64,000 nt of DNA from contig WION01000031.1 of NCBI GenBank assembly GCA_015039365.1, positions 62,001 to 126,000 on the forward strand. The letters are read 5' to 3'. Positions 7,110 through 54,678 of this stretch are shown piece by piece. The stretch comes from Amanita rubescens. Taxonomy: Eukaryota > Basidiomycota > Agaricomycetes > Agaricales > Amanitaceae. The notes beneath the pieces were generated by a model. It saw only the letters and a program-made list of their open reading frames with translations, was not told the DNA's origin and did no database searches. The translations under genes and the position numbers were made by a program. Each line of letters starts with the position of its first letter. Position 1 is the first letter of the stretch.

Positions 7110-7598
7110 AGCGCGGTCTAAGTCTGTTTTCACGTGAAACGGGACAAGATTTCATCGGAGTTCGGAACATCACGTGCATGACCGTCGCTCCTTTCAAATT
7201 GTGGCTTGGTGACGCGTCATAACACCTCAGTTGTTTGCTCTTAGCAACTGAGTATATTGTCCAATACATAGCCCCGTGGACCTCGAGACGGTGGACTTTG
7301 GTCCGAATTCTAATCCAAGTTTTTGCGGTTTTTGGACCAAAATTTGTCCGGATTCTAAGCCAGGCTTCCAGCCTCCTCAACTGGCATTATCCCGGGTCCT
7401 GGTCCTGGTACTACGCTACTCTCAGGCACCGCCTAAGTACATTCAAAAATCCCTCATTTCACAATGATGAATCATACAACATACACCTAACCCTAATTAC
7501 ATCCCTCATGCCAATTCTGGCTACATAGCATACCTAGTACTCACGGTCAACTATTGCTTCGCAAGCAAACAAGATACTTGGCACTTCCTTGTCCACTC
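7110..7598. other. Intergenic spacer
   Basis: This lies between the Crinkler start and the end of the E2 relic. It holds a plus-strand stretch with repeated TTTGGTCC/GGACCAAA-like words near 7295-7350. I see no gene or RNA here. Confidence 0.4.
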
Positions 7599-8213
<615 letters not shown>

Positions 8214-8904
8214 GGGTAATAATTGGGTTCTACAAGTGCGGCATGCGATCAAGGGCGGCGATAGCGAGGGCGTGGGCAGATAGAGGGGATAAGAGCAGGC
8301 TGTGAGCAGCGGAGCGGCGAGGGTAGAGGAGTGGACTTACAGAGCAGGAGGAAAACGGTTGCACGGGGAGCAGTGGGCAAGTGGGGGGAGGGGGGGGAGT
8401 TATAAGTCTAGAAACGGGTGACAGAACGTTCGTGAAGGAGTAGAATCTAGATCAACCATTACGGTCATGGGTCAGGAGTACGTAAACGAGCTGTGTAAGT
8501 GGAGTGCCTTATCTATGCTTATCTTCCATGCTCCCTCATCAAGATTGCACAAAGCTGCCGATCAGAAACAGCGAGGATTTGTTCTTGACACATCTGACGG
8601 CCGGGTTGTATACCACCCTTCTTCATCCTTCCGTATCCACTTTTGTTGCTCTGATCCTTGATCTATCGTCATATCTCGTCGCGTCTTGATTAAGATTACC
8701 AGGGTTTCGTCATAATTACAGCACAATCAATCTCATTGTCGCATGTCGATTTTATTCGTTATTCCTGTTATTCCAATCGTTTTCCCGCTGTAGCGTTACA
8801 TTGACGACGTCTATATCACAGTAGATGGGAAAATTTCCGGGTAAGAATCCATCATAGGCGTGTCGAGTAGGTCTGTTAAAATGTTTTGAAATCAGCATCA
8901 TCGA
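8214..8904. other. Intergenic spacer upstream of the E2 relic
   Basis: This probably contains the former promoter of the E2 gene. A G-run lies near 8375-8400. I see no convincing reading frame or repeat. Confidence 0.35.
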
Positions 8905-11970: not shown

Positions 11971-12468
11971 ATGGCAGAGATGGCTGTTGCAGACACAAAC
12001 AGTGGGTTGCACTGATACATGTAATCAAAACCAACTCATTCATAATTACACAGATACAGAACATACAGTGATGCTCAAGGAGCAATACAAATGCCCCCAT
12101 TTCCGCATTCTAATCATAGGAAGGGCTAATGCAGGCAAGACTACCATTCTTGAGAAGGTCTGTGGTGTACAACAGGGTACAAAGCCTATCATACGTGACA
12201 AGGATGGTAAGCTAGATAAACCTCCAACTACTTTGCAGACCCACAGTAAATTTTTAGGTGAACAACTGGTGCCTTCTGAGACACATTTGATGCCATCAGT
12301 TGAGGCATAAATAATGTAAACATGTCTGGCATATGACAAGGCAATAATCATCAGAGAGGTATACATGATATTGAGCACCAGATTACATACCATGGATGCA
12401 ACTTTATCTTCCATGACTCTCAGGGTTTTGAATCTGGTGCAAGTGAGGAGTTGGAGCATGTTTGGGAA

Positions 12469-12872
12469 TGACGAAGTTATCTTATCTAATCTAAGATAAC
12501 AAGGAGATCTTATCTTATCTGCTTACTAAGCAGATTAAGGTATATATAGATAGAACCTTGTAGAAGGTTCTAGTACGCTTGCGTCATCCTTACTGCGGAT
12601 GGCGCCATATGACACCATAGCTGCGCATGACATCAGCGCAGCTCCATATCTCCATATATGAGTATGACATATGTAGTTACATATATTTACCTATGTTGTT
12701 ACCTATTAGGATACAGACAGTATATAAACCTGCCATGTACCGTAGAATAGTAACAAGCTCTCTTAACCTCATACCACCATCTTCTCAGCTGAGTGGTCAG
12801 CTACTGTACACATCGGGTAAGCTATCGCTTTAACTCCTCGACGCTGCGCTACTGGGCGTTTCCCTTTCGTCA
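12469..12872 (+). repeat. 5' LTR of the copia element
   Basis: It begins TGACGAAG and ends CTTTCGTCA. A TATATAGATAG box lies near 12541 and another TATATAAACC near 12721, either of which could serve as promoter. Short palindromes (TTATCTTATC... and CTTGTAGAAGG) lie near the 5' end. Confidence 0.9.
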
Positions 12873-12884
12873 GGTTATGGGCCC
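12873..12884 (+). promoter_or_regulatory. Primer binding site matching initiator tRNA-Met anticodon arm
   Basis: Directly after the 5' LTR the sequence is GGTTATGGGCCC. This is the reverse complement of GGGCCCATAACC, the anticodon stem-loop of eukaryotic initiator tRNA-Met. Copia of Drosophila is known to prime from a cleaved half of this tRNA, so the same half-tRNA mode is inferred here. Confidence 0.75.
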
Positions 12885-13704
12885 CGACATGGTATTGCTT
12901 GTCGACGCTATCGCCAACGACGTACGCGATGTGTGAACACAGGTATAGTATCGTGCGGGTCTGTGTACTTGTAGCACTGTTGATTACAGCTGACCCTTGC
13001 ACCTGCTATAAGAGCTAATGACATGCGCCCGGACCCTAGGGCTAAGGGGGATCTCCTAGACACCCAGGGATAAGGGTACCACCTACGTTTCTCAGGGCTG
13101 GCATGGCAACCCTGACCCCCACGGAGTTTTACTTGCCCTCCGTGACGTGATTGGGGTATTAATGCACGATATAACATCATAAGCCCATTAGAGGCTTTAT
13201 AATACAATATGGCTCGTAGATAGTCATTCTAGTATAAAGGACGTGCTGACATCCCATTTGGGGTGGTACACGCAGTCTATTGAGGATGCGCCCTTAGGGA
13301 CTCCTCTAGTCGGAATGTTCTATAGGAACATTCTAAGTTTAGGCTCTGTGGTGATCCCACAATCCTATCTAGATAGCTTCATATTGTTTACCGGTCGTGC
13401 TTACATAGCTGTCTGGGGGGTTTATGGACCAGAAGCTATTTCTATTCCTGGAACAAACTGTTCTCCCCCGTTCAAGGGGATCCAGGGGAGAAATGCCGTT
13501 TTGCGCGCTCCCAGTTCCAGGACCATATGCATGTCATCTCTTACAGGTAGCACATTCACACACACGGGTACATGTCCAAGGTGGTGGCGTCCAGGCATAT
13601 CCATGCTTGGAGCAGCTCATAAGCTGCACGAATGGGTTGTTGTCGTTTTCGTAATGACACCTCATTAATTGTTCCAATTTTAGATAAAATCTTCGCTCCA
13701 GCCT

Positions 13705-14268
13705 ATGAGCCGTCGAGCTAGAAGATATAATAGATTAGCAGAAGACCTAAATAGGCTAAACAACCTATTTCCAAGTTCATCTTCCGACAGTGAACTTGAA
13801 TCGCTGACTGCAAACTTTGCAAGCAGCTCAGCTCGAATTACTACCCGGCCCGTTAACCGGATAGTACCAACATACCCATCTGCCTCATCATCCGAGGACG
13901 AATTAGATCGTGATCCAAACGATTATTACGTCCCAAGAGCAGATACTCCGCTTCCTGTATACTTACCAGGAACAGCTCGTCATTCAGCAGGTGTACATAC
14001 CTCGCTGATAAATCGTCAGTACAGACTTGAAACTGACACATTTCGATCCGGTTTCACATTAACCGACGAAATCCAGTTCCGAAGATCTTTAATCGAAAAT
14101 CGAGGACCTGATTATAGCGAGGTAGAACCGTTCTCGCAACACAGTTCAAGTTCGTTCAGCTCATTAACTGAACCAAACCAAATCATAATCCAACAAAGGT
14201 TCCGAAGAACCTTTTTACAACTCTTTCTTGCCGCCTTCCTCGCATCACTTTCAATCTTCGTCATCTAA
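13705..14268 (+). CDS. Short first ORF of the copia element with a C-terminal membrane anchor
   Basis: 187 residues, not recognised. The N-terminus is basic (MSRRARRYNRLAEDL), the middle is Ser/Asp-rich and disordered, and the last 20 residues are hydrophobic (FLQLFLAAFLASLSIFVI), resembling a tail anchor. The stop TAA (14266-14268) is followed by AGA AAG and then the gag-pol ATG in the same frame. Only one stop codon therefore separates this ORF from gag-pol. Canonical copia elements have no such ORF. Readthrough of TAA would give a membrane-anchored N-terminal extension, and reinitiation after 6 nt is equally possible. It could also be an unused leader frame, but its length and composition argue for a protein. 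Confidence 0.6.
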   Translation: MSRRARRYNRLAEDLNRLNNLFPSSSSDSELESLTANFASSSARITTRPVNRIVPTYPSASSSEDELDRDPNDYYVPRADTPLPVYLPGTARHSAGVHTSLINRQYRLETDTFRSGFTLTDEIQFRRSLIENRGPDYSEVEPFSQHSSSSFSSLTEPNQIIIQQRFRRTFLQLFLAAFLASLSIFVI

Positions 14269-14274
14269 AGAAAG

Positions 14275-17200
14275 ATGTCCGAAGATTCAGCATCACTCTC
14301 CACTGTCCCCTTACTTAAGGGAGACAATTACCGCTTGTGGGCTCGCAAAATGACGGCCTATTTACAAGTAAAAGGAATCTACAAATACATGAGAGATTCC
14401 TTCATCCAACCGTTAGATCTCAATGCTACCGAGCAGGCAACGCTCGAAGCCCATGACTTCGATGCAATGTTACCTGCAGAAGAAGGTGCAGCTCCACTGC
14501 CGGCCCCAATACCGGCAAACATCCAAGCTTTATTAGATCAGAGAGACACATATTTAGAGTGGCTCTCTGATAACGAAAAAGCCCTGGGTTCAATTATGCT
14601 CCGTTTGAGCGATTCTATCGCGGAGATATATGATACTGGGGCTCATCTCAATGCAAGGGTCCTTTGGGTCGCCTTGCGACAGAGATATGGAGATACCGGC
14701 CGAACCGGTACCTTCAACGAATTCCAGGCTGCACTGGATTGGAAGCTTGATGAAAGAAGGGACCCCGAACAGTCCCTTAATGAAATAATCGCCAAATTCG
14801 AGCGATTAAGTGGACAGGGTTTCTCGCTACCCGAAGAACAAAAAGCGATGATAATTGTCCGCGGTGTACCGCATCGTTGGGACAATTTTGTAGGAGCCGT
14901 ACTGGCAACTGCACCAGCAGCTGGTCTAACAGTCCAGCATGTTGCGATTCAGATCAGGGAGGAATGGAGAAGGCGACACTCGGCTGTCGCACATACGACC
15001 GCACAGATGGCGCGGGGTGACCTGCAACAAAGAATTAGTGGACAGGCACCCTGGCAAGGTCGTGGGCGAGGACGTGGACGAGGCCGCGGAGGATTCCGTG
15101 GCCGTGGACGTGGTCGTGGTGGTTTTCAACCATACACACCACAAAACCAGCAACCAGTAGTGGGAGCTGGTAATGCTCCAAGGTTACCGGAGCAACAGCA
15201 GCAGTGGCAGGGTCAAATGACCAACCAAACACGTGGCCGTAATTGGCAACGTAATAGGCAACTTCGCCAAACTGCGAAGGCCAACCGAGCGGCAGCACGA
15301 GCTGACGCTCATCAAGTAACCACTGGCATGACCTATACTGGGCAAAACCAAACTCAGTATACTGCTGCACCGGCCATACTTGGCCACCATTCCATTGTAC
15401 CATTTGTACAAGGATCGTCCACAGGGAGAATAGAAGAAGTTACTCCCATGCAAGAAGAACCCCTTATAGAAGGGGCATATGATGATCAGCCGAATGATAA
15501 CTTCACGGCTTTTGACGATTATGATATGAAGAATTATGATGATTCTGCATATGATGATTACTATAACGACGAGTGGGTAAAAACTTATTTTAGTGCGGAT
15601 TGGGCTAACTCTTATTCAGTGGACGTATGTAAAACAATCTCAGATTCTGTAATTGTATATAACATGGAGTGTAATAAAAATTCATGTAAATCCAAAAACG
15701 TCCCAATGAGAGTTAGCCCTATAAGTCCAAACTATAAAAATAAGATTCATATCGCCTATCCAATGCATACAACGGGAAATCAACATCAGCACATAATATG
15801 TGCTGGTAGAACGGACAATTGCAAATGTCCTTCCTGTTGTACAGAACGGACTGGAGAAACACTATGGATGTGTGACTCTGGTGCATCTGAGCATTTTACC
15901 TTTAATCTGAACGATTTTTCAGATTATAAACCTTTTGATAAAGTGAAACTGGTAAAAACAGCAGATGGCACATCCGATCTAATTGGACAAGGCACTGTTA
16001 TTTTTATTCATAAATTATCTAATGGAACAAGCCACCTTGTGAAACTGTACCCCGTGTTATACATGCCGCGTCTTAACATACGACTTGTTTCGAACGGCAT
16101 GTTGTGTAAGCAAGGGTTACTGGCGTCACAAGACGATCAACGGATCACCTTTTCCTATAAAGATGGTAAAAAGGAAATATATCTTGAAGCAAGTTATCGC
16201 AATCAAGATACATTAACTTTATGCACAGGACGTATTATTCATAAAAACGTCCACAAAGTGCCACCATTCTTTGAAAGAGAATCTGTCAATACATATACAC
16301 ACGTTGATAAGGCTCCACCTGTTGAAACTTATACAGTAAATGAAAGTGTATCAACGTACGATATATGGCATAAACGTCTAGGTCACCCTGGTAAAGACGT
16401 GTTCCAACATCTTAAAGGACACGTAAAAGGGTTTGAAAAAGGCGATCTTCCCAAACCATCCCCAAATCTTCGATGTGAAGGATGCTTAAAAGGAAAAATG
16501 AAGGCAAAAACTTACAAAGAATCCAAAAAGCGGGCATCACGTCCGCTTGAAATGATCCACATGGACTTAAAAGAGTTTCCAACTCAGTCTTATCACAAAT
16601 ACAAGTATATACTTGTTGTGGTCGATGATTATTCATCGTATGTATGGATTGGATTCCTTAAACACAAGTCAGATACCACTGAAGTGTTCCAGCGATGGTT
16701 CACGAAAGTTTCTGCACTTAACAAACGAATACTCTACCTCCGTTCCGATCGAGGGGGGGAATTCGTAAATAAAGCCTTTAAAGATTTCCTTGACAAAAAT
16801 GGCATTCAACACCAAACATCGGCACCTCATATACATCAGCAAAATGGACGAGCTGAACGAATGATTCAGACTTTAAATGATAAGTCTGAAGCTATGCGGC
16901 TCGATGCATGTATACCGAGATCTTGGTGGGAATTTTCAATCGAAACAGCTGTACACGTATACAATAGAACCCCAATTGTGCGTGGCAACTGGAAAACGCC
17001 TTGGGAACTTTTATATAATTCCCTTCCTGACGTTCAATACTTTAAAGTATTTGGATGTGAAGCTTGGGTCTTTATCCCAGTTGAAAAACGTTCTGATAAA
17101 CTATCTCCAAAATCAGAACTTATGACCTTTGTCGGGTATGAACTAGGATCAAAAGCATATAAATTTATGGATTCCAATAACGCACTAGTCATATCCGCCC

Positions 17201-20200
17201 AAGCCACATTCTTTGAAGACAGATTTCCTCGCAAAGGAAAAAGTGATATTATTATTACTAAAGATCTTGCACCAATCCTTCTCGATAATCGAGACACTAA
17301 TAATGGTATTCCATCCCCTTCCCCTGTTAGGGGAAGACAACTTGGTCGCAGGCGCACACAATCTCCTCTACCAGCTGACTCTGTAGAGGGAGGAGATCCT
17401 GAAAGCGACTCAAGCTCCAGCTCCGGTCACTCGGGCGATAAACCGGCATCAGTAAAACGAGAATCTTTATCACCCCTATCAGATGGCCTTAAAACTCCGT
17501 CTTGGGGATTAAAATCTCGTAGTCCAACACCGGACGATGCTGATAGACCGGATAGTCCTGATATCAGAAAAGGTTCCACCATGGATGATCTTAGAAGGAG
17601 ATTCCAAGAAACCATGAGGAACATTGACGATGAACTAGAGGACCTTGAAGCAGGAGAAAGAACTCGCCTGCTGGAACAAAACAGTGGACTTCGTGACAGG
17701 CACACGAATATAGAAATTCGTAGACGCAATGCGGATGAAATCCTAAAGAAATTCATTCCTGACAGAAGTCCACCACGCACGAATACTAGAGAACAAGTCT
17801 TAGATATTAGAAGAAGACTTGCAGAAAGATTCGCGCCAGATAGGAACCTTGAACAAGGAAGTAAAGATCGTATACCAATCTCTGAATTCAAAAAGGAGAT
17901 TGATGAACGAATTCCGATGCCAGATCTAACTTTTAATAAAGTTAGAGAGGAATTTGGCAAACGATCAACCGTTCAAAAACCTATAAATCCAGCAGATTAT
18001 ATCCCTGAAACAATTAAACCATCATCCAAAACCATGGGAAAACGTAGAGAAAGATCCAAATCTTTAGATAAATCTCATAGACCTCGTAGTAGACAGAGGC
18101 TAAATGAACCCACTCCAGTGGTACCCCCACCGGCAGTAGTTCCCCGGAGATCTAATCGTGTTCCCAAACCAATTATACGTAAAGACAATGCGTATGGTGA
18201 AAAGAAAGCAGTTGAAATAGAAAAAGAAATTCTCAGACAAAGAGATCTGATCAAATATCAGATTGACAACTACGAGAATGACTTTGGTGGTCGTATCCCA
18301 AACAAGGATGCGGCTACACGCTTTAATCCAACTGCTAAAACACCGCCTTCAAGATCTATGGATATAGATCCAAAGGCAACAATAGCTAGGATGATCAAAG
18401 AGTGTGGAAATGACTTTATGCATTTCCTACTCGCAAATATGATACCGAGAGAAGAAATTCGAACGTATCAATATAGGGATATATATAAGATCAAAGGTGA
18501 AAATATTGATCTATATAAGCAGTGGCGAACTGCAATGGAAGACGAGTTCAAATCTCTACAAAATAGAGATATATGGGAATTAATGGAATTACCAAAAGGG
18601 CGTAACCCAATAAAGTGTCGTTGGGTTTATGATATTAAGTCGGATGGCCGTAAAAAGGCACGACTTGTCGCCAAAGGCTTTAGCCAACGCCCGGGATTGG
18701 ATTATGATGAAACATTCTCGCCGGTAGCGAGATATGAAACTATTAGACTTCTTCTGGCAACAAGTGCTTTAGAAAATTGGGATATTGAAGCACTTGACGT
18801 TAAAACTGCTTTCCTCTATGGCGACTTAGACGAGGAAATATATATGCAACAACCAGAAGGTTTCATCATAAAAGGACAAGAATCTAAAGTTTATAAACTT
18901 AAGAAAGCTATTTATGGCTTAAAACAAGCATCGTACGCTTGGAATAAACAAGCAGACAAATCCTTGAAGTCCCTAGGATTTAAACGATGCTTAGCCGACT
19001 CTGGCATATATGTCAGAACCACAGATAAAGATATTACCATATGTGTAATATATGTGGATGATATACTTTTCATAGGAGACAAAACCGAAACAATTTCATA
19101 TATCAAAAAGGAGTTTATGAAAATGTGGGAATGTCGTGACCTAGGAAAAGTCAAAGAATATTTGGGCATCAAAATCAATTACGACCGAGCGATTGGTACG
19201 CTTGTAATAGATCAAGCTGCCTACGCAAAGACAGTCGTAGAACGCTTTGGTTTGTTAAATTGCAAACCGGTGTCAACTCCTTTACCTGCAGGATATGTAC
19301 CTGCTAAAAACACCTCTGAAGCATCCTCCGAGGATAGATCCTATTATCAACAAATAATTGGATCGTTATTATATCTCGCCTTAGGAACTAGGCCTGATAT
19401 TGCTTATGCTGTTATTTTAATGTCGCAATTTTCTGTTAATCCATCTTACGACCACATCCAAAGGGCGCTTTATATAGTAAAATATATAGCGCACACCCTT
19501 GACACACGAATTACCTATTCCAGAAATGGGAAAGGCTTCGTTGCCTATGCAGACGCAGATTGGGCGTCTGACAGAGAGACTAGAGTCTCGGTTACAGGCT
19601 ATGCCTTAACTTTGGCAGGGGGTGCAGTTTGTTGGGTTTCTCGAAAACAGAAAACAGTTGCGTTGTCATCAACGGAAGCTGAATATATGGCAATGTCCGA
19701 TGCCTCACGTCAAATTATGTGGGTGCTAAACCTATACCAAGAATTAGGTTTCCCCTTGGGCGGCATTGACCTTCTTTGCGACAATCAGGGTGCGATATTT
19801 CTGGCATCAAACCCTGCACAACAGCACAAATCAAAACACATTTCCATTCGCTATCATTATATTAGGGAACGTGTTGAACAAAAAGAGATCAATCTTTATT
19901 ACGTTCCTACCAATCAACAAATAGCGGATTTAATGACTAAGAACCTGAATAGAGAGAAAATTCAGTTCTTTATAAATGAACTAGGAATAACCGTTAATGT
20001 TACTCCATATCCCACTATCAAAATGCATAGTGCAAGTCACTGGATACACCTTTCAGCTGAAGGGTTAAATGGAGTTGAAGCAACATTCATGTATACGAAC
20101 AAGCGACAAAATTTCATTCGTGATATGCTTGATCCGAAAGTACCAAAGGATACGTTCATGAATAGAAAAGAAGATCTTCTACCGAAACCAGTTAGAGATC

Positions 20201-20370
20201 GTATTATGAAGACATACGAACCTATAAGACAGTCGAAGATCAAAAGATCCTTTAAACGAGAAGACATTAATATGTTGGACTCGTGGAATCTTTTAGAAAC
20301 ATTAACGGATGAAAATAAATTCCTAGTAGAGTTCATTAAGAAGAAATGGCGAATAAATGTTCTAGGATGA
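14275..20370 (+). CDS. gag-pol: Copia gag-pol polyprotein, intact
   Basis: 2031 residues in one frame. The N-terminal Gag region (about 1-240) starts with VPLLKGDNYRLWARKM. An Arg/Gly-rich stretch (about 262-285) takes the place of a usual zinc knuckle. The protease DSG is at Asp534 (DSGASEHFT). A pre-integrase zinc domain (about 695-750) ends CEGCLKGKMK. The integrase core has Asp764, Asp825 and Glu861 with 35 residues between the last two. An unusually long charged linker (about 1010-1390) carries RRRN/RRRL coiled segments. The reverse transcriptase has YVDD at 1593-1596, and RNase H spans about 1755-1890 (ADADWASD, STEAEY). About 130 extra residues follow RNase H, with no domain that I recognise. 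The order integrase before RT defines copia. All catalytic residues that I can check are present. Confidence 0.95.
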   Translation: MSEDSASLSTVPLLKGDNYRLWARKMTAYLQVKGIYKYMRDSFIQPLDLNATEQATLEAHDFDAMLPAEEGAAPLPAPIPANIQALLDQRDTYLEWLSDNEKALGSIMLRLSDSIAEIYDTGAHLNARVLWVALRQRYGDTGRTGTFNEFQAALDWKLDERRDPEQSLNEIIAKFERLSGQGFSLPEEQKAMIIVRGVPHRWDNFVGAVLATAPAAGLTVQHVAIQIREEWRRRHSAVAHTTAQMARGDLQQRISGQAPWQGRGRGRGRGRGGFRGRGRGRGGFQPYTPQNQQPVVGAGNAPRLPEQQQQWQGQMTNQTRGRNWQRNRQLRQTAKANRAAARADAHQVTTGMTYTGQNQTQYTAAPAILGHHSIVPFVQGSSTGRIEEVTPMQEEPLIEGAYDDQPNDNFTAFDDYDMKNYDDSAYDDYYNDEWVKTYFSADWANSYSVDVCKTISDSVIVYNMECNKNSCKSKNVPMRVSPISPNYKNKIHIAYPMHTTGNQHQHIICAGRTDNCKCPSCCTERTGETLWMCDSGASEHFTFNLNDFSDYKPFDKVKLVKTADGTSDLIGQGTVIFIHKLSNGTSHLVKLYPVLYMPRLNIRLVSNGMLCKQGLLASQDDQRITFSYKDGKKEIYLEASYRNQDTLTLCTGRIIHKNVHKVPPFFERESVNTYTHVDKAPPVETYTVNESVSTYDIWHKRLGHPGKDVFQHLKGHVKGFEKGDLPKPSPNLRCEGCLKGKMKAKTYKESKKRASRPLEMIHMDLKEFPTQSYHKYKYILVVVDDYSSYVWIGFLKHKSDTTEVFQRWFTKVSALNKRILYLRSDRGGEFVNKAFKDFLDKNGIQHQTSAPHIHQQNGRAERMIQTLNDKSEAMRLDACIPRSWWEFSIETAVHVYNRTPIVRGNWKTPWELLYNSLPDVQYFKVFGCEAWVFIPVEKRSDKLSPKSELMTFVGYELGSKAYKFMDSNNALVISAQATFFEDRFPRKGKSDIIITKDLAPILLDNRDTNNGIPSPSPVRGRQLGRRRTQSPLPADSVEGGDPESDSSSSSGHSGDKPASVKRESLSPLSDGLKTPSWGLKSRSPTPDDADRPDSPDIRKGSTMDDLRRRFQETMRNIDDELEDLEAGERTRLLEQNSGLRDRHTNIEIRRRNADEILKKFIPDRSPPRTNTREQVLDIRRRLAERFAPDRNLEQGSKDRIPISEFKKEIDERIPMPDLTFNKVREEFGKRSTVQKPINPADYIPETIKPSSKTMGKRRERSKSLDKSHRPRSRQRLNEPTPVVPPPAVVPRRSNRVPKPIIRKDNAYGEKKAVEIEKEILRQRDLIKYQIDNYENDFGGRIPNKDAATRFNPTAKTPPSRSMDIDPKATIARMIKECGNDFMHFLLANMIPREEIRTYQYRDIYKIKGENIDLYKQWRTAMEDEFKSLQNRDIWELMELPKGRNPIKCRWVYDIKSDGRKKARLVAKGFSQRPGLDYDETFSPVARYETIRLLLATSALENWDIEALDVKTAFLYGDLDEEIYMQQPEGFIIKGQESKVYKLKKAIYGLKQASYAWNKQADKSLKSLGFKRCLADSGIYVRTTDKDITICVIYVDDILFIGDKTETISYIKKEFMKMWECRDLGKVKEYLGIKINYDRAIGTLVIDQAAYAKTVVERFGLLNCKPVSTPLPAGYVPAKNTSEASSEDRSYYQQIIGSLLYLALGTRPDIAYAVILMSQFSVNPSYDHIQRALYIVKYIAHTLDTRITYSRNGKGFVAYADADWASDRETRVSVTGYALTLAGGAVCWVSRKQKTVALSSTEAEYMAMSDASRQIMWVLNLYQELGFPLGGIDLLCDNQGAIFLASNPAQQHKSKHISIRYHYIRERVEQKEINLYYVPTNQQIADLMTKNLNREKIQFFINELGITVNVTPYPTIKMHSASHWIHLSAEGLNGVEATFMYTNKRQNFIRDMLDPKVPKDTFMNRKEDLLPKPVRDRIMKTYEPIRQSKIKRSFKREDINMLDSWNLLETLTDENKFLVEFIKKKWRINVLG

Positions 20371-20385
20371 CTTAGCGAGGGGGTG

Positions 20386-20789
20386 TGACGAAGTTATCTT
20401 ATCTAATCTAAGATAACAAGGAGATCTTATCTTATCTGCTTACTAAGCAGATTAAGGTATATATAGATAGAACCTTGTAGAAGGTTCTAGTACGCTTGCG
20501 TCATCCTTACTGCGGATGGCGCCATATGACACCATAGCTGCGCATGACATCAGCGCAGCTCCATATCTCCATATATGAGTATGACATATGTAGTTACATA
20601 TATTTACCTATGTTGTTACCTATTAGGATACAGACAGTATATAAACCTGCCATGTACCGTAGAATAGTAACAAGCTCTCTTAACCTCATACCACCATCTT
20701 CTCAGCTGAGTGGTCAGCTACTGTACACATCGGGTAAGCTATCGCTTTAACTCCTCGACGCTGCGCTACTGGGCGTTTCCCTTTCGTCA
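20386..20789 (+). repeat. 3' LTR of the copia element
   Basis: 404 bp, identical as far as I can compare to 12469-12872. It is followed directly by the GGGAA duplicate and then by the interrupted GTPase exon. Confidence 0.9.
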
Positions 20790-21603
20790 GGGAATTCATT
20801 AAGAAGCGGTCTTCTGCAGCTGAGTTGAGAGATCAGTTACATGCAATTTGGTATCTTTATATTAAACTGTTTCATGCCAAAATGGCTAATCTTTTCATAG
20901 GTATTGCATTCCCATGGACAGTCCTCGACCTCTTCTATCTGCAGAACTTGAGTTCTTTACCAAAGGAACAGGGAAAGGTGAGTCCATTATGGTTGGTGCC
21001 TCTTCCTACCATGCCTCTTGTTAATTAAATAGATAATAAAATCATTTCTTGACAGTTCCTTTGGTGGTTGTATTCACCAAATTTGATGGTCAAATAGTGA
21101 AAGAATCTATTGGCCTGAATGATGTGGAGAATGATGAAGATAAGTGGGACAAAGCCAGAAAAAATGCTGATGAAGTTTTTCAGAGAGTTTATCTTCCCAA
21201 AGTTTTAAATACCCAATATCCACCAAAGGCCTATGTGCAATTGGAAGGTGGGAATGGGAAACATTTCTTAATTTCACATAGAACTAATCCTGCACAACAG
21301 ATATGGACCTCTCTGAGAATAACTGTCCAGAATTGACTGAGAAGACTGCTAATGCAATTGATGATGCCAGTCTTCTTCAACTCTTTTTGTCAACACAAAT
21401 GAACAACCTTGATCTTTGTGTTAAAGCTGCCCTTCAGTAAGAACCAAATTGCAAATAACATTAAAATATTGACAGCTGACAGGTACATTTTGGCTGAAAG
21501 GCAATACATATGGGAATATGTTATACTCTTCATTTTCCAGAAGTTTCCACACTATTGGGTAAGTTGCAAAACACATTGATACAGGCATGGAAAAAGCTAA
21601 CAG

Positions 21604-23381
21604 CAAAACATAGATGTAGGTTTCATTTACATATACAAAAGTGCAACATGGATTAATAGTATTGCAACAGGGTGTAAGCAGTGCATCTTCATAATATCAA
21701 ATACTTGATGCAATTCCATCAAATAACAGGAACTATATTTGAGTAACTTAATTATCTTTTCTGCATCAAAGTCTAATGTCATAAATAACAGTGGGCACAG
21801 TGGGCAAGTAAAATGGAAATCATCATGGAATGTGATGAGTTCTGATCTCATAAGCTGCAGGAAGTGAGCAACAATGCAGTTTTTGCCACCAGACAGTCTC
21901 ATAGTATTGCTTCTTACAACAGACTGTGAGCAGAATAACACTATCTTCTCCAATTTGGCTCATTGCATGTCATCCCATGATTAACAGATAGTGAGTAACA
22001 TTGGGGCTTGTTCTGCCAAGAGTTGACATTGTATTTATCATTATTGCCAGAGAGTTAGTCTAACATTGAATTTTTGCACCCAAGCAGGCTTCATTACCAA
22101 TAGACAGTGAGTGCAGTTGCAGTTTGTTCTACCTGGAAGTACATTGCATGACATGACATGATTAACAGTATGTGAGTGGTAATGCAGTGATTTTCTGCAA
22201 CATAGTCTCACCATATCACATCCCATGACAAACAGCAAGCAAGTGACAGTGATTTTCTGCCAGGCAGTCTCATTATATCTAATCCCATGACCCACAGTTT
22301 GTGAGTGACAGTGCACTGATTTTCTGGCACTGAATCTCATCTCATCTCATCCTATGACCAACAGGATGTGAGTGACAGTGCACTGATTTTCTGGCAGTCA
22401 CATCTCATCCCATGACCAACAGATTGTGAGTGGTGGTACAACAATTTTCTGCCAGGCAGTCTCACCATATATTGTCCTGTGATGAATAGCTTGTGGGTGA
22501 CAGTCCAGTGATTTTCTGCCAGGAAGTCTCACCCATTCAATGACCAATAGGATGTGAGTGGCATTTCAGTGATTTTCTGCAAGGCAGTCTCACCACATCT
22601 CATCACATGACCAATAGCTTGTGAGTGACAGTCACAGTGATTTTCTGCAACCAAACCTTATCTCATCTCATCACACAACCAACAGTTGGTTAGTGACAGT
22701 GCAGTAATTTTCTCCCAGGCAATCACATCACATCTCATCCCATGGCCAACAGGATGTGAGTGACAGTGATTTTCTGCCAGGAAGTCTCATGTCCAATAAC
22801 AAACAGGCTGTGAGTGACAGTGCAGTTATTTTCTGCCAGCCAGTCTCATCGCATCTGACTCATCCCATGATGAATAGGATGTAAGTGAGAGCACAGTGAT
22901 TTTCTGCCAGGCAGTCTCACCTCATTTCATCCCATAACCAACAGTTTGTGAGTGACAGTGTAGTGATTTTCTATCAGGCAGTCTCATCACATCTAATCCA
23001 ATAACCACCAGGCTGTGAGTGTCATGGCAGTGATCCTATGCCAGGCATTCTTACCCCAGCTCATCCCATGCTGTGCAGCTGGTGAGTATATTTGCACATT
23101 GTCCAGCAGGTGTTCTGAACAACCCCATCATATGTCAAATAGCAAGTGAGTTACATATGTTATAGCCTTCTCTGAATTATCTTATCATCAATGACAGAAA
23201 GTGTGCTAACATGTATTCTTTTTCATTCTTATTTTCTGACTGATTTTATGGTCATTTACAGATTGTAAGATACTATTCATTGTTAGCCATATTGATGGCT
23301 TTTCTCATATCTTTTGTCTTCTTTAGGTGAGCAATGTAATTCAACAAATGTGAATATAAATACTCAACTTTTGTTAAGGTT
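21604..23381 (+). other. Array of single-codon micro-exons, copy 1
   Basis: After exon 8 comes a 12-nt exon (21604-21615). Triplets bounded by AG and a GT/GC donor then start at 21671 GGT, 21801 TGG, 21861 GAA, 21923 ACT, 21988 ATA, 22051 AGA, 22104 ACA, 22169 TAT, 22236 CAA, 22298 TTT, 22365 GAT, 22423 ATT, 22490 CTT, 22551 GAT, 22618 CTT, 22686 TTG, 22753 GAT, 22807 GCT, 22878 GAT, 22945 TTT, 23012 GCT, 23079 CTG, 23143 CAA, 23198 AAA, 23262 ATT and 23379 GTT. Donors are mostly GTGAGT; those after TGG 21801 and CAA 22236 are GCAAGT. Most units end TGACCAACAG or a close variant, giving branch site and acceptor together. Central units are about 65-75 nt and similar to each other, as if made by tandem duplication. 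The unit between GGT and TGG is irregular. Confidence 0.8.
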
Positions 23382-23802
23382 GTAGGTCTACTTGAATGTT
23401 GAACTTCAAACTTTTATTCTTGCTCATTTATCATTAGCCTGAGCTCTCACATTTGTTTGAAAATCCAACTGCAAAGTTTGAAAAAACAGTAACTGTGATG
23501 TCATTTCTATCATACACAACTAACATTGTGATGTAAACAGCCTGAAGCATGCCAAGTACTAGTTGGTAATGTACCTCTCTTTGTACCCTTTCCATACTAA
23601 TTGTTTAGCAGCCATGAATATCCTTGCCAAGTTGTCATTTTGGATAAGAGAGCCAATTGAAACATCCATCATGAAAGCTTTGGACCAGTTCAAGAAACAA
23701 AGTTATGTGGATAAGCTGAAGACTCAGATTACCTCTGAGGCAATACCCACTGGACATCAAGATTTAGTTCAATTCCTGTATGATCAAGTTATCAACATCT
23801 GA

Positions 23803-26974: not shown

Positions 26975-28015
26975 ATGGCCAAGCCGCGCGACGCTCCGAA
27001 ATATTGGGATGACTCATATGAAGCAGTCGTTGCAGGAGTTGTGAGTACTTCTTAGACTTGGGCGGGAAAAAACCCTGCAAAAGTTTCGCATGTTTCTCAA
27101 CCTACTACACAGGAAATGCGCGACACCCCCACACGGCTTGCCGACATCCTGGGCACCTACGTCTGGCTGTTCAGCGGTGACCCAGAGTGGGGCGGGGATG
27201 TCGTGGCTATGCACCACGACTACACGGACGACGCGGCTTTCATCGCGAGGCACAGCATCATGCTCGGCGCTGCAAAGCATCGTCCCGGTCAGTCAGTCGC
27301 GCCCGAGGACGTTAGCGGGCACATCACCTGGGGTACGTTCACGGTCGCGTTTGACGGCATGCGGCGTGTGCGGAAGGGGCGGTCTTCGAACGCAGCTGTC
27401 GTGGAGAGCTATTGGGAGGTGCTGCTGAATGAGAAGCAGGACGACGAGGACAGCGCAAGATGGTTGGATACGGAGGGCAATGGAGTAGGCGTTTCGGTTG
27501 TGCTGGATGATAATGGGTCCCCGTTTTTGGTGTTTGAGTGGCACCTTGGGGGAGGGGGCCACAGTTCGTGGTCCGGCTATTATCTGGGGAAGCGATTGGT
27601 GAAGGGGAAGGAGTGGCAGTTGACGACTAATGAGCAGGACCGGTTGGGGATGGAGGCCAGGTTTAGGAGTGTGGAGCGGTCGGTAAAAGGGGGGCGTCCG
27701 CGCGTGTATGAGGAAGATGAGGGGGAGGAAGATTACTACGGTCGTTCCGATGAGGATGAGATCAGTGGGGAAGAGACCAGTGGGGAAGAGGCTGTTAGAG
27801 AGAAGAGCAAAGCGAGCAGTGATGAAAGAGGCGCTAAGAAGAAGAAAGTGAGCAGCGATGAAAGAGGCTCTACTAGTAAGAAGAGGAAAGCAAGCAGCGA
27901 TGAAAGAGGCTCTACTAGTAAGAAGAGGAAAGCGAGCAGCGATGAGAGAGGCTCTACTAGTAAGAAGAGGAAAGCGAGCACTAATAAAACAGGCACTAAG
28001 AAGAGGAGGCGCTAG
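26975..28015 (+). CDS. Hypothetical protein with Ser/Lys-rich repeat tail
   Basis: Two exons, 26975-27040 and 27113-28015, join in frame (intron of 72 nt, GTGAGT...ACACAG) to 322 residues. The N-terminal two thirds look globular (MAKPRDAPKYWDDSYEAVV, YVWLFSGDPEWGGD, then a Gly/Trp-rich HLGGGGHSSWSGYYLG) and match no family that I recognise. From about residue 230 the chain is strongly acidic (EEDEGEED, SDEDE). It then holds three near-identical 14-residue repeats, ASSDERGSTSKKRK, with degenerate copies before and after, and ends KKRRR. Basic clusters suggest nuclear targeting. The direct repeats at DNA level imply recent unit duplication. GC content is higher than in the flanking repeats. Confidence 0.75.
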
Positions 28016-50629: not shown

Positions 50630-53600
50630 ATGGCTAAAGCTGAAGCTGCAAGTGCAGATGCAAACAGTGGGTTAAAATACTCACCTTGATTTCACCTTGA
50701 TTTCACCCAGGCATAATTTACAGGTACAGATTTTGTAATGCTCAAGGAGCGATATAGATGTCCCTGGTTCCGTATTCTTATCATAGGAAGGGCTAATGCT
50801 GGAAAAACAACTATCCTGGAGAAGATCTGTGGTGTAAAGCATGGAACAAAGCCAATCATATATGATCAGAATGGTATGCCATGAGGCAAAGCAAGTTATT
50901 TTGCATATTCAGTGATAATATAGGTGAAGAACTGGCTCCCTCTGGCACACATCTAATGCCATCAATTGAGGTAAGCAATATGATAGAAAATCAGTGCTTT
51001 TAATAATGTAATGAATTGTCAGAGAGGAATACATGATATTGAGCACCAGATCACATACCAAGGAAGCAACTTTATCTTCCATGACTCTCAAGGTTTTGAA
51101 TCTGGTGCATCTGAAGAGTTGGAGCATGTTTGGAACTTCATTGACAAGCGGTCAGCTGGAGCAGAGCTGAAGGACCAGTTACATGCAATCTGGTATGTGT
51201 CTAGTTGTATTGCTTCCTTACAACTAGGTGATAAGTAATTCAAAGGTATTGCATACCCATGGACAGTCCTCGTCCTCTTTTATCCACAGAAGTTGAATTC
51301 TTTGATAAAGGAACTGGGAAAGGTGAGTCAGAAGGCAGTCACAATAATTTTTGGTTTAGTTTGGCCACTTGCCTTTTGCATTATTTACATGTCCTACATT
51401 TCATGTGGCCCTACAGGGATCACAGTGTACTGACTATGAATATATTTTGCAGTTCCTTTGGTGGTTGTATTCACTAAATTTGATGGCCAAATAATTCAAG
51501 AAGCTGTCCACCTTAAATATTTTAATAATGAAGAAGATAAGTGGGACAAGGCCAGGAAAAATGCTGACAATACTTTTCATGCAGTCTATGTTCCTAAAGT
51601 TTTCAGTACTAAATATCCTCCAAAAGCATATGTGCGGTTGGAAGGTTGGATGGTTTGCATTTCTTTATTGCAGTCAGAGATAATGTTGTTTAACAGATAT
51701 GGACGTTGCAGAAAATAACTGTCCAGAATTGACTAAGAGGACAGCTGATGCCATTGATGATACCACACTTTATCAGCTGTTTATCTCAACACAAAGGAAC
51801 AACCTTGATCTTTGTGTCAAAGCTTCCCTTCAGTGAGCACAATGAAATGTAGAATCAGCTTCTTATTTTCTAGGAATGTTTTGGACCATGGAAACCCTGC
51901 ATGGGATATCATTACAACTACAATTTTCTGCAAGTTTCCACACTATTGGGCAAGTGAAAAAACTTTGCTGTTGATATAAAAGCTGAGTTAAGAACAGGAA
52001 GATTATACAGTAGGTTTCATGTAAAATAATGATAGCATGTATAAATAAGGTCTGTAAAAGGAGGTAAGTCTTTTATATATCATTATATGACAAACTTGTC
52101 CCAATCATCATATGTGAAGGGGGTTGTATGTAATCCTTTTTTTTGTCTGCAGGGCAATGAAATGACATGACAATTTGCATCTTGCATTGAAGGGCAAAGA
52201 ATTATATGTGAGTACTATAATATAATCTGTATGACCAGGTCTAATGCCATGTTAAAAGTGGGTAAGGTGTTTTCCAGACATGTTTAATATTTATTTGATC
52301 TCATTATACACAGAAAGTGAGTAGTCTTAGTTTTTTATGCCTCATCATATTAAATTTCATAATAATAGGGAGTGAGTGAATATGTATGTCTTCATTTTTT
52401 AATTCTGCTCACCTCATATATGACCAATAGAGAGTGAGATACATTACATTCTTCTACTATGCATTATCATGATTATGACTAACAGAGAGTAAGTAAAATT
52501 TATTTCTAGATAGTGTGATCTCAATTCCAGTATTCACAGGGAGTGAGCAATACTTCACTTTTGTATTTGTCTGATCACATCATCACATTGTGATCCATGT
52601 TTCACAGAGAGTGAGTGACATTGTAACACAGGATTATTCCCACCATGGCCAATTACATCTCATTCCACCTATAGTTTGTGAGTGAACCAGGCCCTCTTCA
52701 TTATGACAATTTCATCAAATCTTGCCCCATGATAACAGCTGGTGGGTTTATGATGCTTTTTTTTTGGTAAAGATGGTCTTACTACATAGTATCATTCCAT
52801 ATAATTAGGCAGTGAGCCACACTGCAGTTTTTCTTCTGGGCAGTTTCATCTTATGTCTTTTCATTGATCCACAGGATGTGAGTGGCAGTTGAGATATTCT
52901 TGTCAGGCAATTAATTACACACACTGTCATCATTCCGTGCCATGATGAACAGGGAGTGAGTTGAAGACTACAACATTTTCCTGCATGCTTTTGTCACATC
53001 CTATCCATTACCAACAGAGAGTGAGCAACTCTCTTCCAGGCATTCTCACTACATCTCATATAAATGACAGATTGTAAGTGATATTCTAGTTCTATCTGTC
53101 AGGTGGCTTCATCCCATGACCAACAGAAAGTCAGTGACATTGCTGTGCTCTCTGCCAGATATCTCATACATTTATATAATTGCACAACTAACAGTGTGCA
53201 AGTGTCACATCACTTCCCTCTATTGAGCAATCTCATCACACATCATACCAACAGAATGTGGGTGAAATTCAGTTTTCTTTGCTAGTAACCTACAAATATC
53301 ATGGTCAATAGGCAGTGAGTTACATTGCAGTTTCCTGAACATTTAACTCAGGCCTGTGTCTCATCTCATGACCAAAAGCCTGTGAGTGGAACTGCAGAGT
53401 TTTCATCAAGGATTTCTCATGACTATATTATCAAAGGATGTAAGTGCACTGTTACAATCAGATGAGTCTTATTACATTAAGTCATTCCTATGAACAACAG
53501 GATGTAAGCAGCCTTGTCATGGACCTGTCTTATCATGCCAAACATGATTGGGCCATAACAGTTTGTAAGCGGGTTGTTCATGTTTTACTATGCAACCCAA

Positions 53601-54678
53601 TCAGACCTTCATCACCTAACTAGCAGGTGAGTGATACTTTAGTTTTTTGGCACCATTTCAGTTTAGTTTATGTGACTTCCCATGGACAGGGTGTGAGTCA
53701 TACTCCACATTTTCTTGAGCTCCCAGATGGTCTTATCAGATCCAATCCCATAACTGGACCAGGGTGTGAGTCATACTCCACATTTTCTTGAGCTCCCAGA
53801 TGGTCTCATCAGATCCAATCCCATAACTGGACAGGATGTAAGTCATACTCCACATTTTCTTGAGCTCCCAGATGTCTCATCAGTTATTCTCACAAAAATA
53901 TTAGGACATTGTGAGTGAAATACCATGATGCTGTTGTGCAGATCCTGGAGTCATTACTTCAAATTTCTTTCTTTTCCAATAGGTTGTAAGTTATATTGCA
54001 AAGTTTCTGTCATTGAATCTCATCAAATTTCATCACATGGCTAAAAGATCGTAAGTAATAGTGCTATTTTACCAGGTTGTTCCATCAAACCTTGACTTGC
54101 CCTATGACTAACAGGATGTGAGAGGCATTTTTTTTTCTTTCTGCCAGTCCATCTCATCTTCTCCGGTGTATTAATAGCAAGTGAGTGACATTGCAGCACT
54201 TCCTTCTAAGCATTCCAAAATGTCTCATCCCATGAATAACTGCAGTTTGTGAGAGATGTTATGCCTTCCACTGTGCATAATCTTACCAAGCTCATGCCAA
54301 CAGCCAGTGAGTATTTTTTTCCAAGCAGTTCCATCTTAATCACACAGCTGACAGTATGTGGGTGACACTACAAATACTTGCTTTAAATACATAACTGTAA
54401 CCACTAATGTCCAAAAGCATGTATGTGACATTTTAGTGCTTTTATTATGCCCAGAAATTTGATAACCCCTTGTTCCATGTATAACAGGTTGTGAGTGAAG
54501 CTCAAGTGCTTTGTTCTACCACATCTTATATCTTACCCTTGACCAACAGCAGGTCAGTGAAAATGCAACTTTGCTTCTTTCATTACATCTTATTCATGAT
54601 TAAAGCAAGTGAGTGATATTGTTATTATATATTTGTTTCAGGCAGCCTAATCAATCTCACTAGCAAGTGAGTGGGATT
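50630..54678 (+). pseudogene. P-loop GTPase gene with single-codon exons, copy 2, 3' end displaced
   Basis: Exons 50630-50666, 50724-50873, 50924-50970, 51023-51192, 51246-51322, 51453-51644, 51697-51832 and 51874-51949 match copy 1 exon for exon in phase. Exon 3 has 47 nt, exon 7 has 136 and exon 8 has 76 in both. G1 GRANAGKT, G3 DSQG and G4 TKFD are conserved. Exon 8 ends KFPHYW in both. A 12-nt exon and at least 40 micro-exons follow. At 54679, inside the intron after the last triplet, an LTR element begins. The C-terminal exons, if they exist, lie beyond the window. Exon 8 uses a GC donor (GCAAGT). Whether the gene is still expressed through such a large intron is unknown. Confidence 0.75.
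51998..54666 (+). other. Array of single-codon micro-exons, copy 2
   Basis: The 12-nt exon is 51998-52009. Triplets start at 52061 GAG, 52259 TGG, 52314 AAA, 52369 GGA, 52431 AGA, 52486 AGA, 52540 GGA, 52608 AGA, 52675 TTT, 52739 CTG, 52809 GCA, 52875 GAT, 52953 GGA, 53018 AGA, 53071 ATT, 53127 AAA, 53195 TGT, 53255 AAT, 53312 GCA, 53379 CCT, 53437 GAT, 53501 GAT, 53562 TTT, 53624 CAG, 53690 GGT, 53763 GGT, 53835 GAT, 53905 (six bases, GACATT), 53983 GTT, 54048 ATC, 54115 GAT, 54178 CAA, 54246 TTT, 54304 CCA, 54355 TAT, 54418 CAT, 54488 GTT, 54550 CAG, 54606 CAA and 54664 CAA. None is a stop. Units are more divergent than in copy 1, yet the AG-triplet-GT frame is kept. The unit at 52064-52258 is irregular. 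Confidence 0.8.

Follow-up and report, generated by a model that had tools for sequence, protein, structure and literature searches.

The window, a stretch of 64,000 nt of Amanita rubescens DNA, contains on its + strand a GTPase gene that is broken by an LTR retrotransposon and, further downstream, a second gene of the same family. In the first gene, ordinary exons flank an array of predicted exons, most of which comprise a single codon:

12071..12468, + strand: intron-containing 5' portion of the GTPase gene, with the P-loop GRANAGKT, ending at the LTR insertion, from translation and homologues
12469..20789, no strand assigned: LTR retrotransposon within the coding sequence, from blastn of its two ends, its boundaries and a long ORF
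20902..21558, + strand: ordinary GTPase exons 20902-20977, 21056-21247, 21301-21436 and 21483-21558, ending with FPHYW in phase 0, from the open joined frame and homologues
21604..21615, + strand: 12-nt exon QNID (CAAAACATAGAT), read in the sequence, at the place of a 12-nt exon in three paralogues
21671..21673, + strand: predicted single-codon exon G, of lower confidence, found by the capped chain model and missing from the uncapped chain
21792..21803, + strand: predicted exon WAQW, from both settings of the chain model; a count of 26 triplets needs just its final codon W (21801-21803), from the motif list
21861..23264, + strand: 23 consecutive predicted single-codon exons, E T I R T Y Q F D I L D L L D A D F A L Q K I, from both settings of the chain model, starting at 21861, 21923, 21988, 22051, 22104, 22169, 22236, 22298, 22365, 22423, 22490, 22551, 22618, 22686, 22753, 22807, 22878, 22945, 23012, 23079, 23143, 23198 and 23262
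23265..23378, + strand: double intron (63 + 51 nt) with a predicted recursive splice site at 23327/23328, conserved in relatives
23379..23381, + strand: predicted single-codon exon V, of lower confidence by score, found by the capped chain; at this place, cDNA-supported paralogues carry an F or L exon of one codon
23438..23802, + strand: ordinary exons 23438-23488, 23541-23565 and 23609-23802 with stop codon TGA; the C-terminal residues resemble those of P0109, P0111 and P0112
51935..54679, + strand: second GTPase-family gene, with the FPHYW exon ending at 51949 and the chain prediction at 52314-54490

The protein encoded by the first gene matched PF01926 slightly below the cut-off (20.8 vs. 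21.9 bits). The inserted element of about 8.3 kb, which we take to be copia as in the initial annotation, lies upstream of the array, is flanked by a 5-bp target duplication (GGGAA at 12464-12468 and 20790-20794) and has LTRs that are 100% identical, so its insertion was recent. With this element in the coding sequence, the normal protein is probably no longer made from the window copy. The second gene, for which the chain model predicts 30 exons of one codon and one exon of two codons at 52314-54490, is 99.8% identical to a copy on C56 up to about 54679, where the sequences diverge, and its 3' end is therefore missing or rearranged in the window. On the + strand of the window, the motif YAG-NNN-GTRAGT occurs 34 times, namely 15 times in the first array, 18 times in the second gene and once elsewhere, and the minus strand has one. 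A 42-bp minisatellite of about 4.4 copies is found at 27801-27980 of the window.

The initial annotation had described a 12-nt exon followed by 26 one-codon exons in the first gene. It gave no list of the triplets; ours were selected from 46 loose AG-NNN-GT/GC motifs in the stretch, a few of which are TGA, as a chain with introns of at least 50 nt. The resulting 26 triplets at 21671-23381 fit the claimed count and end points; each has AG immediately before it and GT or GC immediately after it, and none is a stop codon. The 12-nt exon was likewise found in the window sequence, and the joined frames confirmed that the exons on either side of the array have open frames in phase 0 and that coding continues downstream to the TGA at 23802.

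For an assessment beyond motifs, a splice-chain model was trained only on the introns of cDNA-supported paralogues (see below) and then applied to the window. With introns capped at 130 nt, it predicted 25 of the 26 triplets to be separate exons. When long introns were allowed, 23 single-codon exons remained (E to I, 21861-23264), and G at 21671 and V at 23379 were lost. The 26th triplet, TGG at 21801-21803, was predicted under both settings as the end of the 12-nt exon WAQW. The model did not pick the QNID exon, which we retain because the three cDNA-supported paralogues have one 12-nt exon directly after FPHYW (VDRR, FRRQ and IDRE). In leave-one-out runs, 21/29, 42/47 and 56/62 exons were recovered exactly among 24, 45 and 56 predicted ones, and because this recovery is incomplete, predicted exon counts are approximate. 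The window chain scored 200 (long introns allowed), whereas 200 dinucleotide shuffles gave 4.0 ± 0.9 with a maximum of 10.6, and 88 other pieces of the window reached at most 6.5. The array is thus real and beyond chance, as the initial annotation had argued from the regular size of the units.

The capped chain in the window reads G, WAQW, the 23 residues from E to I, and V, with mostly strong splice sites and no stop codon. These features have to be considered with the possibility that the window copy is a pseudogene, its array being left over from a functional family member and no longer yielding protein. The LTR element breaks the coding sequence upstream of the array, and we consider this reading somewhat probable, although the identical LTRs place the insertion in the recent past and the array still forms a stop-free chain with good splice sites. 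In our preferred reading, the array of the window copy would have been free of stop codons until this insertion.

A protein search with the window GTPase gave 1382 matches in a collection clustered at 90%, of which the best 120 were considered. Among the matches listed, the nearest named relatives come from Amanita brunnescens and A. rubescens, and seven proteins (P0002, P0003, P0004, P0024, P0109, P0111 and P0112) derive from contigs of about 1-1.5 kb and carry a linker of some 40-79 residues from FPHYW to the C-terminal domain. The source contigs of P0109, P0111 and P0112 are only 1.1 kb long, whereas the genomic loci span kilobases, from which we infer, on the basis of the protein translations, that the contigs derive from spliced RNA. 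The NCBI models of the family that were inspected, such as P0001, P0006, P0007 and P0027, end 0 to about 50 residues past FPHxW or, in the case of P0027, skip the array, and these are probably truncated annotations.

Using a purpose-written protein-to-genome spliced aligner, we placed the linkers of P0024, P0109, P0111 and P0112 on genomic loci. P0112 aligned to C106 with 55/55 residues through 30 introns and 23 single-codon exons (intron penalty -6 or -5; with -7 or -9, 53/55 residues and 27 introns) and to C650 with 54/55. P0111 aligned to C328 with 84/86 residues in 49 exons, 40 of them single-codon, and the nine loci tried for this protein gave 61 to 84 of 86 residues. P0109 aligned to C46, and likewise to C124, with 92/93 residues in 64 exons, 59 of them single-codon. 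P0024, which comes from a more distant source, reached 51/78 on C776 and on C618, and P0003 had no close locus in the genome, the best match being 72%. Shuffled linkers (40 each), counted with their fixed ends, did not exceed 31/55, 43/86 and 48/93 identities, and on C46 the linker of another gene and the reversed linker gave 47/90 and 45/93. When all phases were permitted, the alignments were unchanged, with phase 0 in 63/63 introns for P0109 and 30/30 for P0112. The 141 proven introns of the three paralogues are all in phase 0 and 45-115 nt long (median 58), with 135 GT and 6 GC donors. The 122 proven single-codon exons (23 + 40 + 59) occur in longest runs of 17, 27 and 32, and, being internal, at most 30 nt long and included in spliced RNA, all 122 are microexons. 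Codon inclusion is thus shown at the protein level for spliced transcripts of three paralogues and predicted for the window gene.

As a contiguous copy elsewhere in the genome could have coded for the linker, this source was considered as well and rejected: the linker peptides of P0109 and P0111 had no genomic match at E 10, a negative result that carries weight only because the flanks of both proteins match the genome exon by exon.

All internal exons between proven introns (138/138) are multiples of 3, and with phase-0 introns throughout, any subset of exons keeps the frame. The exons could therefore be real and many of them skipped at will, so that each gene yields a cloud of linker isoforms, a reading we regard as unlikely but worth keeping in mind. 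A candidate K codon in a 110-nt intron of C106 (22150-22259), with a strong acceptor and a weak donor, is absent from P0112 and is a possible skipped one-codon exon. On the other hand, a single full-length form explains the contig in each of the three cDNA-level cases, although isoforms would be hidden because the protein collection was clustered at 90%.

The array could also be a minisatellite within one large intron that is removed as a whole, its splice-like motifs coming from the repeat unit. The window array is indeed a degenerate tandem repeat (22242-23070, period 67, 12.7 copies), and the NCBI models stop near FPHxW or skip the array. However, the spliced contigs of the paralogues include the codons, and identity among the introns of C46 and C328 is as low as about 0.61-0.62 (0.55 after shuffling); a simple repeat with units this divergent would hardly have preserved the 3-nt spacing. 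Together with the stop avoidance and the constraint on GT/AG described below, inclusion at the cDNA level led us to rule out a single large minisatellite intron, which we hold to be extremely improbable. The same three lines of evidence support the claim of the initial annotation that the triplets are one-codon exons.

The arrays are a general feature of the family loci surveyed. The chain model was run on 23 loci, 22 of which have an FPHxW anchor and all of these 22 an array; C667 and C257 (L055) were added, and L045 and L050 were used in protein alignments and left out of the chain model. All 24 anchorable loci thus have arrays, with 952 predicted single-codon exons, 19-83 per gene (median 38.5), in a non-random sample, as C79, C82, C257 and C667 were chosen for their arrays and several loci are mutual close copies. 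As the loci share ancestry, counts across them are not independent. The array end of C101 is uncertain, since its C-terminal anchor looks wrong and stops come after it.

In the whole genome, the pattern YAG-N3-GTRAGT has 10,421 sites and its reversed pattern 3,009, compared with 1,799 sites for YAG-N4-GTRAGT and 3,384 for the reverse of the latter. The excess at 3-nt spacing is therefore about 7,400-8,600 (10,421 minus 3,009 or 1,799). A stricter unit core had 1,445 exact matches in the genome, and its reversed pattern had 0. Of the ten clusters among the matches listed, the eight that were compared with GTPase matches all start no more than about 3 kb downstream of one on the same strand, C3 and C12 being the other two. 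Also among the matches listed, the array of C13 (582036-583225) has two 4-nt and three 2-nt spacings instead of 3 nt. A 2-nt unit comes directly after the first 4-nt unit and would bring the sequence back into frame; these could be 4- and 2-nt exons, or decay.

The spacing, the codons and the splice sites of the arrays were then considered with regard to constraint. In the 22 array spans, YAG-N(k)-GTRAGT occurred 509 times at k = 3, compared with 14, 6, 3, 13 and 4 times at k = 0, 2, 4, 6 and 9, and 1, 5, 1, 1 and 5 times at k = 10, 12, 13, 14 and 15; k = 1, 5, 7, 8 and 11 gave none. Only 1 of the 509 raw triplets, to which no stop filter was applied, is a stop codon, versus 45.5 expected from column composition. 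Divergence was summed over five paralogue pairs, with some loci used twice. GT/AG positions differed in 2/826 cases, donor positions 3-6 in 19/815, codon positions in 33/771, intron interiors in 392/9192 and acceptor positions -3 to -12 in 106/2044. GT/AG are thus kept, the donors less strictly, and the codons change at about the intron rate. As the codons and the acceptor stretch change like intron interiors, neither the residues nor this stretch look constrained. In the pair C328b/C23a, the codons change faster (21/174 vs. 143/1737 in intron interiors). Codons ending in C were found in 0/122 proven single-codon exons and 5/509 raw triplets of the 22 loci. Among the F, D, N, H, Y, C and I codons, the T/C ratio is 50/0 in proven single-codon exons, and the window gene has 47/23 in its ordinary exons (p 7e-7). 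We read this absence of C-ending codons as a probable donor-context constraint.

Near the end of the array, the window gene has an additional element that the initial annotation had not mentioned. An AG|GT at 23327/23328 sits inside the 114-nt intron 23265-23378, and YAG|GTRAG is found 98-123 nt before the last acceptor in 16/22 loci, in many cases preceded by pyrimidine-rich sequence. Such sites number 5 in the remaining 59 kb of arrays and 14 in 91 kb of background. These sites were counted by a plain pattern that was set after the site had been noticed by eye in long introns; the weight matrix missed most of them because their acceptors are pyrimidine-rich. The site is present in the three cDNA-supported loci, with nothing included there in their proteins, and is missing in C289a, C289b, C79, C82, C101 and C31. 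At the sequence level, an acceptor directly followed by a donor at a conserved position characterizes a recursive splice site. The putative conserved zero-nucleotide exon near the array end is a new observation, made from the sequence patterns and the paralogue proteins.

The arrays code for the linker that joins the GTPase domain to the C-terminal domain. P0002 and P0003, with linkers of 62 and 79 residues, are identical in 279/293 alignment columns before the linker, 36/81 within it and 85/90 after it; in this comparison, conservation is lowest in the linker. When the C-terminal part of P0003 was used as a protein query, only P0002 and P0003 were matched. We infer that the linker is a fast-changing spacer and perhaps a recognition segment.

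How the units arose is best approached with C79, which has 83 predicted single-codon exons. Of its introns, 69 are 62 nt long, and 41 of these 69 are letter-identical. The mean major-base frequency in the 62-nt introns is 0.985 and the mean entropy 0.11 bit (maximum 0.58 bit), compared with 1.72, 1.73 and 1.42 bits at the three codon positions. Unit pairs with identical introns share the codon in 167/836 cases, compared with 0.155 over all pairs. Over 5483 intron columns, a unit-by-unit alignment of C79 and C667 had 1 mismatch and 7 gapped columns; the 82 codons compared were all the same, and C667 is without one unit (CGA). Codons of C79 repeat at lags 9 and 18. Within-gene intron identity is 0.91 in C79 and 0.82 in C82, and 0.61-0.66 in the other ten of twelve genes (shuffled, about 0.55). 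Across eight genes, introns at the same position after W are 0.591 identical vs. 0.566 at different positions (p 0.0004), which weakly suggests that intron positions shared across genes may be old. The predicted peptides contain block repeats (FMREDDRR/FMQEDDRR in C79, GVV in C82), in which several units were duplicated together.

Duplication of intron-plus-codon units would account for the spacing and for the unit that C667 lacks relative to C79. It does not explain why identical introns accompany different codons, and as the whole story for C79, it was rejected for this reason. Intron-specific homogenisation or intron mobility would explain the identical introns of C79 with their diverse codons. 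The introns could accordingly have spread as introner-like mobile introns that inserted between pre-existing codons. The low entropy of the introns next to variable codons and the rarely shared codons of identical-intron pairs speak for such a spread; random insertion, however, would not yield exact 3-nt spacing in phase 0, duplication is indicated by the whole-unit difference between C79 and C667 and by the recurrence of codons at lags 9 and 18, and eight of the ten listed clusters adjoin the GTPase family. In addition, adjacent codons of C79 are identical in no more than a quarter of cases (lag-1 identity not above 0.25), and therefore 3-nt repeats do not flank the introns as a rule, in the way a target-site duplication would. 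On this evidence, we consider an origin by mobile introns rather doubtful.

Taken together, we are highly confident that the linker of this Amanita GTPase family is split codon by codon, with about 25 exons of 3 nt in the window copy. In the proposed mechanism, each 3-nt exon would lie between phase-0 spliceosomal introns of mostly 45-67 nt, with 19-83 such exons in relatives. The introns would be spliced out sequentially through intron definition, as a donor and the preceding acceptor, only 3 nt apart, could hardly be occupied at once. Near the array end, two introns that abut without an exon would be removed recursively. As a skipped or duplicated unit keeps the frame, the linker could gain or lose one residue at a time and may thus serve as the fast-changing segment of the protein.

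Our judgement is evenly balanced on a more far-reaching, codon-by-codon architecture. According to this proposal, one mushroom genome would hold some 7,400-8,600 or more one-codon exons; linkers would be resized by intron-plus-codon units; an intron-exact process (reverse splicing, conversion or mobile introns) would keep the introns of some genes near-identical, while the single codons stay diverse under selection against stops; and a conserved zero-codon unit would stand near the end of the array.

The transcript-supported gene with 59 one-codon exons, up to 32 of them consecutive, takes the question of the smallest exon to its limit. As a natural system, the family lends itself to tests of intron definition, of splicing in sequential and recursive steps, and of how donors are recognised when exon context is missing. 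The data also suggest that public gene models of the family are cut short at the array, point to an unusual route of protein evolution with one residue per duplicated intron, and leave, in the identical introns of C79 with their diverse codons, a sharp and testable puzzle on intron multiplication.

With regard to known systems, Drosophila-type recursive splice sites are zero-nucleotide exons of the form AG|GT that subdivide very long introns. The Amanita site, in contrast, would separate a pair of introns of about 50-60 nt inside an array of one-codon exons. In a stwintron, a splice element of the outer intron is interrupted by an internal intron (PMC8469720); the Amanita double intron can be accounted for by two abutting introns.

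The statement in the initial annotation that no such array is known in fungi agrees with the open-access literature searched (subscription papers and preprints being outside its scope): among the entries and passages considered, those of PMC8831610 and PMC9860276 included, no description of one-codon exon arrays was found. That exons of 1-3 nt can be spliced is known from isolated 1-nt and 3-nt exons of plants and animals. For Arabidopsis APC11, the authors favour intron definition with two introns removed successively (PMC4674806), and RPS24 is a further example (PMC12686416, PMC11162997). Unlike these genes with one or few microexons, the Amanita genes have uninterrupted runs of up to 32. 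In a filamentous fungus, Xlr2 of Trichoderma virens has a functional microexon, which is single and regulated (PMC11121469), whereas the Amanita genes carry arrays. Introner-like elements of fungi are spliceosomal introns present in many near-identical copies per genome in unrelated genes (PMC4457414); the near-identical introns of C79 and its kin stand, in contrast, in tandem between the single codons of one gene.

A close parallel is provided by the micro-exon genes (MEGs) of Schistosoma mansoni, a family in which runs of tiny exons, most of them frame-neutral, are hard for automatic annotation (PMC10526429). Their exons are mostly 15 bp long (6-81 in the text and 3-81 in the abstract of that source), with 10-20 per gene and introns of 0.1-5 kb, and they encode secreted parasite proteins (PMC10526429). 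The Amanita genes, compared with MEGs by description only, are not members of that family, as their relatives are mushroom proteins and a GTPase P-loop is present. Like MEGs, they have runs of tiny, frame-neutral exons that annotation has missed; unlike MEGs, they have 3-nt exons by the dozen, separated by introns of only 45-115 nt (median 58), in a mushroom GTPase family.
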